A DNA stretch of 64,000 nucleotides. Origin: an uncultured Pelagibacteraceae bacterium (GTDB taxonomy: Bacteria > Pseudomonadota > Alphaproteobacteria > Pelagibacterales > Pelagibacteraceae). Position 1 is the stretch's first letter; each line of letters begins with the position of its first letter. The DNA is taken from the NCBI GenBank assembly GCA_902594335.1, contig CACJLY010000008.1:1-64000 (forward strand), in the 5' to 3' direction. The position numbers were made by a program, and so were the translations under genes. Of the stretch, positions 21,914-27,527 are shown in pieces. Below the pieces are notes generated by a model that was given only the letters and a program-made list of their open reading frames with translations, did not search any database and had not been told where the DNA came from.

Positions 21914-21988
21914 TGGTACCCTGGCTTGGAATTGAACCAAAAACTAAAGTTCCACAAACTTTCGTGATAACCATTTCACCACCAGGGC
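21914..21988 (-). tRNA. tRNA-His (GTG), A73/U72 type, CCA encoded
   Basis: A complete cloverleaf reads on the minus strand. The acceptor is GCCCTGG pairing with CCAGGGT (closing pair G1-U72), the discriminator is A73, and CCA is encoded at 21914-21916. The D stem is GTGA/TCAC, the anticodon stem AAAGT/ACTTT with loop TTGTGGA (anticodon GTG, complement at 21953-21955), and the T loop begins TTCAATT. Most bacterial tRNA-His have G-1 opposite C73; this one has A73 and U72, the form known from a subgroup of alphaproteobacteria including Caulobacter. A G happens to be encoded at -1 (21989) but would face A73. The gene lies directly before hisS on the same strand. Confidence 0.94.
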
Positions 21989-22550: not shown

Positions 22551-22626
22551 TGGTGGCTTCGGCGGGACTCGAACCAGCGACACAAGCCTTTTCAGGGCTC
22601 TGCTCTACCAACTGAGCTACGAAGCC
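22551..22626 (-). tRNA. tRNA-Phe (GAA), CCA encoded
   Basis: A canonical 76-base cloverleaf reads on the minus strand. The acceptor is GGCTTCG/CGAAGCC, the D stem GCTC/GAGC with AGTTGGTA loop, the anticodon stem GAGCC/GGCTT with loop CTGAAAA (GAA), and the T loop TTCGAGT. A73 and CCA are encoded. It begins 5 bases after the infA stop codon on the same strand, so it is probably processed from the infA transcript. Confidence 0.97.
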
Positions 22627-25774: not shown

Positions 25775-26329
25775 TTATATTTTTGGAAGTGTAACTCCCT
25801 TTTGACCTTGGTATTTACCATTTCTATCTGCATATGAAACGGCTGGATCCTCATTGCCCTTAATAAAGACAAATTGAGCAACTCCTTCATTGGCATAAAT
25901 TTTTGCTGGTAACGGTGTTGTATTAGAAAATTCTAATGTTACATGTCCCTCCCAACCTGGTTCAAGAGGTGTAACATTTACAATTATTCCACATCTTGCA
26001 TATGTAGATTTTCCTAAACATATAACCAAAACATTTTTAGGAATCTTAAAGTATTCTACTGTTCTCGCTAATACGAATGAATTGGGTGGTATTATACATT
26101 CAGATGAGTTTTTTGTAATAAAATTTGAAGATTTAAAATTTTTTGGATCTACAATTTCGGAATTTACGTTGGTAAAAATTTTAAATTCATCAGAAACTCT
26201 CGCATCATAACCATATGATGAGACACCAAATGATATTTTATCTCCTCTAACTTGTTTGTCTTCAAAAGGAGAGATCATGTCATTTTCTCTGGCCATTTGT
26301 ATAATCCACTTATCAGATTGAACTGACAT
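25775..26329 (-). CDS. dcd: dCTP deaminase
   Basis: This trimeric enzyme converts dCTP to dUTP, feeding thymidylate synthesis. Motifs: '[20 protein letters not shown]' (abridged), '[17 protein letters not shown]', '[33 protein letters not shown]' (abridged) with the catalytic Glu, and 'GVAQFVFI'. The length is 184 aa, as expected. Its ATG overlaps the stop of the tiny upstream gene by one base (TAATG). Confidence 0.94.
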
Positions 26330-26436: not shown

Positions 26437-26634
26437 TTATTTTTTGTCAGGATTTGTAAGATGATCAAGTGTTATAACCTGATCAAGAGGAATTGTTTTG
26501 TCTTCTTCAATTTTTACTGGGCCAGTTTTAACCTGTTTTTTTGCTCTTTTTTCTGCAAGCTTTTTCTCTCTTTTAGCTTTTTTCTCCATGAGCTTTGCAT
26601 TTTTATTTGCTCCATATGTGTAGTGAATTCCCAT
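26437..26634 (-). CDS. Conserved-type small basic protein, unknown function (65 aa)
   Basis: The 65-aa protein begins MGIHYTYGANKNAKLMEKKA, followed by a Lys/Ala-rich helical stretch (to about residue 38) and an acidic tail with 'DQVITLDHLTNPDKK'. I know of no function. The N-terminal motif 'GIHYTYGANKNAK' is not low complexity and looks conserved. It heads a compact minus-strand set with the 34-aa gene, dcd and murA. A different start at 26711 would add a hydrophobic leader in another frame and is not favoured. Confidence 0.55.
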   Translation of the reverse strand: MGIHYTYGANKNAKLMEKKAKREKKLAEKRAKKQVKTGPVKIEEDKTIPLDQVITLDHLTNPDKK

Positions 26635-26729
26635 AACATTTTCCTTAAATAGATATAACCCATTTTTAAAAAAAAATAAGGCAATAATTTGAAAAATTTT
26701 AATTTATACACTAATTATCATTAAAAAAT

Positions 26730-26804
26730 GCCCTTGTAGTTTTAATGTTAAAACAGGCCCTTGGTAAGGGTCAGTTACGAGTTAGATTCTCGTCGAGGGC
26801 ACCA
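26730..26804 (+). tRNA. tRNA-Thr (GGT) with swapped tertiary pair, CCA encoded
   Basis: Cloverleaf on the plus strand: acceptor GCCCTTG/CGAGGGC (one G-U), D stem GTTT/AAAC with loop TAATGTTA, anticodon stem GGCCC/GGGTC with loop TTGGTAA (GGT, 26763-26765), four-base variable loop AGTT, T stem ACGAG/CTCGT with loop TTAGATT, A73 and CCA. G1-C72, C2-G71 and G35-U36 fit threonine identity. All five stems pair, but the loops are unusual. A14 is T, G19 is T and C56 is A, giving U19-A56 in place of G19-C56, and A15 with U48 in place of G15-C48. G18 and T55 are kept. It ends 3 bases from the convergent VTT gene stop. Confidence 0.82.
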
Positions 26805-26807
26805 CTA

Positions 26808-27527
26808 TTATTTTGTATAAAAATTTTTTTTTAGCCAAAACCCAATTATAACTAAAAATATAATTCCTAGAATTGGTAAATAAATATCAGGAGAAAAAAT
26901 TAACTCTAAAATACTTGGTACTTCAGAATTTTCCTCCAATATCTTACTCAAACCAGCACCCAGAGATGCTCCAACAAATAATTGCGGAGTCATTCCAATT
27001 ATTGATCCTAGAAAGAAATTTCTTACCTTAACATTAAATATTGTCGGTAAAATATTTGAAATAAAAAAAGGAATACCACCTATAAATCTATAGATTAGAA
27101 AAAAAACAAACTCATTCTTTTTAAACTTTTCAGTAAAATTACTAAAACGAGATGAAAATTTTTCCTCAACCAAATCTTTAAAAAAATAATTTGCAAACAT
27201 ATAAAGAAGTGTTGCGCCAATAGATAACCCGAAAACTACTAGTAAAGTTCCTAACCATTTTCCAAAAATAAAACCACCAACTAGAAATACTGGTGATCCA
27301 AATCCTAATAAGAGAACCCAGACTATGGTACCTATTAAAAAAATAATACTTGATAAAAAAATATTACTATTTTTAATATTTTCTAAAGCTTCTCTATTTT
27401 CTCTTATTAATTCATAACTTGAAAAATCCTGAAATGAAAAGTTGTTAAAAAAAATCAATAAAAAAACAAATACTATCAAAATGTAGGCAGAGCCTAAAAA
27501 TAGTTTAATTTTTTTTTCTCTATTCAT
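26808..27527 (-). CDS. TVP38/TMEM64 (VTT domain) family membrane protein
   Basis: This polytopic inner-membrane protein (239 aa) has a first helix at about residues 9-27, a central VTT (SNARE-associated/DedA-like) domain, and a last helix at the C-terminus ('IYLPILGIIFLVIIGFWL'). The domain signatures are 'GSPVFLVGGFIFGKWLGTLLVVFGLSIGATLLYMFANYFFKD' (abridged) and 'RFIGGIPFFISNILPTIFNV...GSIIGMTPQLFVGASLGAGL' (abridged). Members of this superfamily act as lipid scramblases or transporters in some organisms; the role here is unassigned. It is convergent with tRNA-Thr and divergent from rpmH. Confidence 0.8.
   Translation of the reverse strand: MNREKKIKLFLGSAYILIVFVFLLIFFNNFSFQDFSSYELIRENREALENIKNSNIFLSSIIFLIGTIVWVLLLGFGSPVFLVGGFIFGKWLGTLLVVFGLSIGATLLYMFANYFFKDLVEEKFSSRFSNFTEKFKKNEFVFFLIYRFIGGIPFFISNILPTIFNVKVRNFFLGSIIGMTPQLFVGASLGAGLSKILEENSEVPSILELIFSPDIYLPILGIIFLVIIGFWLKKNFYTK

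Follow-up and report, generated by a model that had tools for sequence, protein, structure and literature searches.

Among the closest described systems for the gene reported here is the canonical bacterial elongator tRNA-Thr(GGU), with which it has in common the cloverleaf, the anticodon loop, the encoded CCA, U8-A14, the Levitt pair, and the contacts G18-U55 and U54-A58. It differs from it in U19-A56, in one extra base of the D loop, and in an allele that appears to be swapped between genomes. In canonical tRNAs, the elbow has G19-C56 as its flat outer face, which is read by the ribosome, RNase P, and T-boxes (PMC4810234, in the part available). A known variant of 54-58 is the A54-A58 of eukaryotic initiator tRNA (excerpts of PMC7912444). 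Departures from G18/G19 and T-Psi-C are also on record for tRNA-Pyl and animal mitochondrial tRNAs, which, according to the accessible portion of PMC7609411, lose or rebuild the D/T contact by other architecture, whereas the tRNA described here has matched substitutes within a normal cloverleaf. For SAR11 itself, 255 tRNA genes from eight strains were studied with regard to identity signatures, and tRNA transfer was discussed (PMC3937112, as far as its text was accessible; there, the main text makes no mention of T-loop, G19, or elbow). Among the results listed, the full-text literature searched, with subscription journals lying mostly outside it, yielded no account of such recoding of the elbow in tRNAs of SAR11 or of phages.

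In staphylococcal peptidoglycan tRNA-Gly, G18/G19 are changed, and this tRNA avoids translation. It is likewise bacterial and carries a changed D-loop motif, without the partner-base change of the present tRNA, for which decoding is the proposed role. Some phage tRNAs are similar in having a different Watson-Crick pair at 19-56 and being normal in all else, as is the tRNA-Ile(GAU) of T5 (L308:3211-3287), which has A19-U56; its GenBank record gives an anticodon-changed version as an amber suppressor. Natural replacements in matched form in living bacteria would show that the ribosome, RNase P, and T-boxes depend on shape and not on base identity, and they would supply ready-made double mutants to test the one against the other.

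The tRNA-Thr(GGT) gene and the register of its D loop

The window, i.e., the whole stretch of 64,000 nucleotides under analysis, belongs to contig 8 of a Pelagibacteraceae assembly of 1.18 Mb in 25 contigs (84% complete). As the first-pass annotation had proposed, it holds a tRNA-Thr(GGT) gene with encoded CCA, called by both ARAGORN and Rfam (RF00005, cut-off 29 bits; Table 1). The pairing of the stems described there was borne out (21 pairs, including the two G.U wobbles 6-67 and 28-42), their number being four and not five, and the D loop and T loop are as the sequence reads. The canonical G19-C56, which is among the best conserved contacts of tRNA and holds the elbow, is replaced by U19-A56, with G18/U55 and U54/A58 kept.

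Table 1. Features of the tRNA-Thr(GGT) locus in the window.
Feature	Position	Strand	Evidence
dcd (dCTP deaminase-like); conserved neighbour and basis of the tree	25775..26329	-	Pfam PF22769; synteny
Lysine-rich ORF of 65 aa, between dcd and the tRNA	26437..26634	-	tblastn: many, not all, of 102 loci; no Pfam match
Approximate 5' edge of the putative swapped cassette	26715..26729	+	alignments, identities
tRNA-Thr(GGT), encoded CCA, U19-A56 elbow	26730..26804	+	ARAGORN; Rfam RF00005 55.9 bits; orthologues
D loop TAATGTTA: extra U (13a), A14, A15, U16, G18, U19, U20, A21	26743..26750	+	sequence; 15-48 covariation; 7-base viral loops
Variable region AGUU, U48 pairs A15	26773..26776	+	sequence, orthologues
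T loop TTAGATT: U54, U55, A56, G57, A58, U59, U60	26782..26788	+	sequence, orthologues
VTT-domain (DedA/TVP38-like) membrane protein, conserved neighbour	26808..27527	-	Pfam PF09335; synteny

The numbering of the D loop had to be revised. Since the extra base of the 8-base loop precedes A14 (position 13a), the U8-U14 contact of the first-pass annotation falls away as a slip of register, and 8-14 is U-A in 102/102 orthologues once this base is so placed. U19 and A56 stand under the corrected numbering, and so does A15-U48: 15-48 is A-U in 92 of the 102 orthologues read among the matches listed, G-C in 8, and A-C in 2. Alleles with the loop TAGTGTTA have G15-C48 in the corrected register, for which the earlier numbering would give A15-C48. 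Of the ten viral U19-A56 tRNA-Thr(GGT), five lack the extra base and have a D loop of seven (AATGTTA, AGTGTTA, ATTGTTA); in the remaining five, the D loop is an ordinary one of eight bases, AGTTGTTA.

The locus order is dcd, the 65-aa reading frame, tRNA-Thr(GGT), and the VTT-domain protein gene, with the RNase P protein gene farther on. The window also carries a tRNA-His and a tRNA-Phe near the Thr locus (21914-21988 and 22551-22626), both canonical. In the genome as a whole, 28 tRNA matches gave 28 distinct tRNAs, 26 of which show the usual GG together with TTC(A/G)A; the exceptions are the Thr-GGT and one Val-GAC. A second tRNA-Thr(GGT), about which the first-pass annotation had left a question, did not turn up in this assembly (1.18 Mb, 84% complete), and the other Thr tRNA is a canonical TGT.

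Covariation among genus orthologues

A covariance model built from three sequences of the genus was run on 151 genus genomes, and 110 loci were read among the matches listed, from which low-scoring genes may be missing, namely 102 Thr-GGT genes from 101 genomes (one genome counts twice, as a single contig holds the locus two times in inverted orientation) and eight loci with Thr-TGT only. Position 19/56 is G-C in 92 of the 102 orthologues, U-A in 8, and A-U in 2, with 0 mismatched; the 53 distinct sequences among them divide into 47 G-C, 4 U-A, and 2 A-U. The pair 54/58 is U-A in 63 orthologues, G-G in 38, and A-U in one. The replacement at 19/56 can be followed on a shared D-arm background, GTTTTAATGxTAAAAC, in which x, the antepenultimate base of the D loop, is G where 56 is C (L045), A where 56 is U (L044), and U where 56 is A (L001). 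Compensated stems and tertiary pairs across the 102 orthologues indicate a structure under selection. As 19 and 56 never change independently in this set, the original view that the matched swaps reflect a co-evolved and not a decayed tRNA is supported.

The double change amounts to more than chance, because 8 of the 102 genus orthologues share it, and a scan of 84,980 genomes brought up 41 tRNAs that have it (see below). The independent swaps inside SAR11 are few in number, given that the U-A and A-U alleles are scarce (4 and 2 of the 53 distinct sequences) and partly related. By elbow class, 49 of the 102 orthologues are recoded and 53 canonical. As a side observation, position 32 is U in 49/102 Thr-GGT orthologues and A in 53/102; these counts equal those of the recoded and canonical classes, so the types of anticodon loop and elbow seem to travel together.

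Distribution beyond the genus set and exchange of alleles

The Thr-GGT U19-A56 pattern, together with G53, C61, and the encoded CCA, was sought in 84,980 named genomes, a collection which may leave out records close to the window's own genome. The 42 stretches obtained comprise 41 real tRNAs, 40 from Pelagibacteraceae and one from Helicobacteraceae, and one false match (L249, Ursidibacter), at which there is no tRNA. In the Helicobacteraceae MAG, the tRNA-Thr(GGT) with U19-A56 (L262:616-691) is located directly upstream of a reading frame that we take to encode EF-Tu. The U-A change is not the oddity of one lineage; it is one of several elbow forms moving among SAR11 genomes, with counterparts in phages.

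While the gene order around Thr-GGT is largely conserved at the genus loci, the tRNA allele does not track its neighbours. The window and locus L039 are identical in the tRNA (75/75), yet their flanks agree in only 711/909 and 517/710 positions; conversely, locus L054, which bears a canonical allele, matches the window's tRNA at 55/75, yet its flanks at 853/901 and 657/700. In the alignments, the exchanged stretch begins some 15 bases before the gene and ends near the CCA. Placed on a tree of Dcd from 99 of the 102 loci (three were left out, Dcd being missing or short), the elbow classes need 22 changes versus 38.5 when shuffled, in a tree with weak support for 58 of 89 inner branches and for a protein that may recombine too. 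Twice, identical Dcd goes with different elbow classes, namely L001 (U-A) with L055 (G-C), and L044 (A-U) with L139 (G-C). These comparisons argue that Thr-GGT alleles are exchanged as short cassettes at a conserved locus, and SAR11 tRNA genes would accordingly be elements that move in units of this size.

Other recoded tRNAs in SAR11

Outside tRNA-Thr, SAR11 tRNAs swap other contacts of the elbow, with A18-G55 in place of G18-U55 and A54-U58 in place of U54-A58. The Val-GAC of the window's own genome (contig 11, L012:1367-1441) has the D loop AATAGTA and the T loop AGCGTAA, and with them A18, G55, A54, and U58. A Val-GAC match is present in 149/151 genus genomes, and the tRNA is identical (75/75) in 30/30 fetched genus loci, which were the best 30, i.e., those most similar to the own locus. 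In the 42 loci picked for their U-A Thr allele, 25 tRNA-Phe and 19 tRNA-His were read. The D loop AGTAGTA and the T loop TGCGATT (A18, G55) occur in 19 of the 25 Phe reads, and the His tRNAs near the Thr locus belong to several unrelated alleles, of which two are recoded (L233-L274); tRNA-Phe at this place likewise differs across SAR11 in unrelated alleles. Genome G175 (AG-426-E17; contig with the locus 966 kb) gave 33 tRNA matches, read as 33 distinct tRNAs, and the sole tRNA-Phe found is the A18/G55 form; the decoding of UUU/UUC must therefore fall to this form, provided that the assembly lacks no further gene.

A sister-family genome, G037, carries a Thr-GGT with A18-G55 and A54-U58 (L345:1501-1574), whose loops AATAGTA and AGCGTAA are the same as those of the genus Val-GAC. 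Of its 28 Rfam tRNA matches, 27 were read by ARAGORN, all canonical, and the remaining one is the recoded Thr-GGT; the list may be incomplete, because expected Asn, Cys, and Pro isoacceptors are absent from it.

Phage and viral tRNAs

In IMG/VR, 10 viral contigs with a U19-A56 Thr-GGT were found. Aligned with the best match from SAR11, these tRNAs agree in only 49-61 of 76-78 positions, and a near-identical viral copy exists only for the GTCAGTA-type SAR11 allele. The viral contig L146 carries six tRNAs, one of which is a Thr-GGT identical in 73/74 positions to a SAR11 allele, not that of the window; the part fetched (12.5 of 25.6 kb) has 49% GC and encodes a Clp-type protease and radical-SAM proteins. 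A phage origin of the window's own allele was considered and is not supported, its 3' part or D arm having 0 exact matches in the viral contigs of IMG/VR and none in named phages. The exact patterns of the SAR11 Phe T-arm and Val-GAC also had 0 viral matches. A 31-base viral pattern gave 0 matches as well; it was probably badly drawn, since a relative is known to exist in the form of the viral 73/74 Thr-GGT. No annotated tRNA was present in the first 50 kb of JX100810, and no tRNA call was obtained in the first 50 kb of HTVC008M.

A scan with a 17-base T-arm pattern returned 46 viral contigs, of which 21 gave a tRNA call holding the pattern, in every case tRNA-Phe; at these 21 loci (within L187-L232), the tRNA-Phe(GAA) has AACTTAGTAGA as its D loop and AGCGTAA as its T loop. 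A sequence like this viral Phe(GAA), with AACTTAGTAGA and AGCGTAA, is seen in Pseudomonas and Cellulophaga phages, too.

For a broader view, the tRNAs of 57 viral loci were read, yielding 467 distinct tRNAs that had not been picked by pattern, from 41 loci. All 119 of these with a 7-base D loop pair at 19-56 (G-C 114, A-U 3, C-G 2), compared with a mean of 109.3 and a maximum of 115 in 10,000 shuffles, and 18/55 in the same set takes only the forms G-U (107), A-G (7), and G-C (5). A wider test covered all loop lengths as well as five named phages, three of which (K8, PX29, XacN1) were included for sequences similar to recoded tRNAs and two (T5, KVP40) as tRNA-rich phages; its automatic register rule was right for 445/481 canonical loops. 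The 64 odd tRNAs found here, none selected by pattern, have 19/56 as G-C 36, A-U 17, C-G 6, U-A 2, and other 3; 18/55 as G-U 41, A-G 14, G-C 8, and U-U 1; and 54/58 as U-A 42, A-U 15, C-A 5, G-G 1, and C-U 1. Two of the four misfits (three unpaired 19-56 and one U-U at 18-55) have GG one place away. Odd tRNAs number 1/23 in T5, 1/14 in K8, 1/22 in PX29, 0/27 in XacN1, and 2/28 in KVP40, one of the latter being doubtful. When Rfam took the place of ARAGORN on 11 viral loci (96 matches, pattern-selected tRNAs included; four matches dropped for a T stem under 4 pairs), 29/29 7-base loops paired at 19-56, and the three tRNAs that ARAGORN had missed are, by our reading, matched odd forms.

TruB and TrmA

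The T loop is read by TruB, the Psi55 synthase. The TruB family (PF01509) is matched in 0/13 genus genomes, in 8/8 genomes of the sister family, and in 14/14 controls; for the TrmA-type family (PF05958), the numbers are 0/13, 1/8, and 12/14, respectively. Across the 151 genus genomes, many of which are incomplete, a TruB_N match occurs in one, and in 0 of the 22 good ones. The window's genome (84% complete) has no TruB_N match, and nine Pelagibacteraceae genomes with the U-A allele lack a TruB match throughout. In the sole positive genus genome, G154, InfB shares 53-55% identity with two InfBs of the genus, the identity between those two being 75%; its TruB probably comes from another lineage. 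At three genus loci (L351, L352, L355), infB and rbfA, reading frames presumptively assigned by eye, are followed directly by rpsO (PF00312) with no truB between; in the same region of a sister genome, truB lies between rbfA and rpsO. The search did not find rpsO in the window's genome, so that here the absence of TruB is taken from the family search only.

Loss of TruB as the sole cause of recoding was considered and cut back. It is not required, because the TruB-positive sister genome G037 has a recoded Thr-GGT; the Helicobacteraceae genome with U19-A56 has TruB, too. That the U19-A56 alleles keep U54, U55, and A58 also counts against TruB as the whole cause. The apparent lack of TruB may loosen the T loop, and a clade with a tRNA-Phe devoid of G18 and U55, and apparently of TruB, would serve as a natural experiment to learn why the T-loop sequence and Psi55 are nearly universal elsewhere.

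Interpretation and alternatives

We consider it highly probable that the gene encodes a working elongator tRNA-Thr with a Watson-Crick substitute at 19-56, in which the contact is kept by geometry, the allele is replaced over a short stretch, and the lack of TruB probably widens the range of T loops. Pairing, allele swaps, taxonomic spread, and the lack of a TruB match are the observations on which this is built; from them, we infer function, expression, and the link to TruB. What is kept seems to be the pairing and not the letters, because the swaps recur in matched form in relatives and phages. It can be rationalized that U19-A56, in place of G19-C56, would preserve the stack of the outer elbow pair, and that the contact between D and T loop would be held by geometry such that 19-56 must be Watson-Crick, while 18-55 would tolerate the small set G-U, A-G, and G-C, and 54-58 the set U-A, A-U, G-G, and C-A. 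Recoded alleles may then have spread in SAR11 by short allele replacement at conserved loci, and the lack of TruB (and, in 13 genomes, of the TrmA-type m5U54 enzyme) probably widened the T loops permitted. Redundancy with Thr-UGU may help, though ACC and ACU make up 453/888 Thr codons of the window (52 non-overlapping reading frames of >=450 bases).

A more far-reaching proposal, which we put forward only tentatively, regards the tRNA elbow as an interchangeable pair code. In SAR11 and phages, the contacts would switch in matched sets (19-56: G-C, U-A, A-U, C-G; 18-55: G-U, A-G, G-C; 54-58: U-A, A-U, G-G, C-A), and in Pelagibacter this would go together with a loss of the near-universal TruB, while whole tRNA alleles would be traded within SAR11 and with viruses, even in the case of a sole tRNA-Phe.

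As to the cause of the changes, as distinct from the pairing itself, neutral compensated drift of a redundant isoacceptor is a serious possibility, if short of probable. Thr-GGT would slide through pair changes without benefit and tolerate weak intermediates, since Thr-UGU could read all Thr codons. The canonical Thr-TGT is indeed present in the own genome, and in the two SAR11 genomes whose tRNAs were all read, Thr-GGT and Val-GAC, each of which has a UNN partner, are among the odd forms. Moreover, among the matches listed, 6/22 good genomes are without a high-scoring Thr-GGT match, so the gene may be dispensable, though lower-scoring copies may exist in these six. Drift is harder to reconcile with the share of ACC and ACT codons given above, with a Val-GAC that does not vary in the 30 fetched loci (the most similar ones), and with the recoding of the partnerless tRNA-Phe in 19/25 reads, all of them at loci picked for their U-A Thr allele.

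Adaptive escape, which we regard as unlikely, would have a nuclease, toxin, or integrating element read the canonical D and T loops, with matched swaps dodging it while function is kept. The repeated switching between several types of allele at one locus (the 22 changes on the Dcd tree), the same elbow forms in phage tRNA arrays, the viral Thr-GGT with 73/74 identity to a SAR11 allele, and the several unrelated tRNA-His alleles near one locus would all suit such a scenario. Against it, no enzyme of this kind was identified in the analysis; the accessible part of a paper on phage-tRNA escape (PMC10264068) makes no mention of T-loop, D-loop, elbow, T-arm, or tertiary, and Cas12a3 is described, in the available excerpt of PMC12851939, as touching the T-arm backbone. 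Furthermore, neutral evolution with high recombination fits diversity with swapping, too.

A pseudogene or decaying tRNA is very improbable: the gene has the lowest Rfam score of the four tRNAs in the window, but its stems are intact with compensatory changes, 19-56 is paired in 102/102 orthologues, CCA is encoded, identical copies exist in other genomes, and neither broken pairs nor independent change of a partner, the marks of a pseudogene, appear in the orthologue tables. That a different register would bring back G19 or C56 is hardly conceivable, for although the D loop has eight bases including an extra one and U8-U14 really was such an artefact, TAATGTTA has a single G, so that no register holds both G18 and G19, G53-C61 closes the T loop and fixes A56, and the 15-48 covariation fixes the 5' side.

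In this context, one should recall that gene finders can overlook recoded tRNAs: relative to Rfam, ARAGORN missed 1/28 matches in G037, namely the recoded Thr-GGT, and 3/96 in the eleven viral loci.
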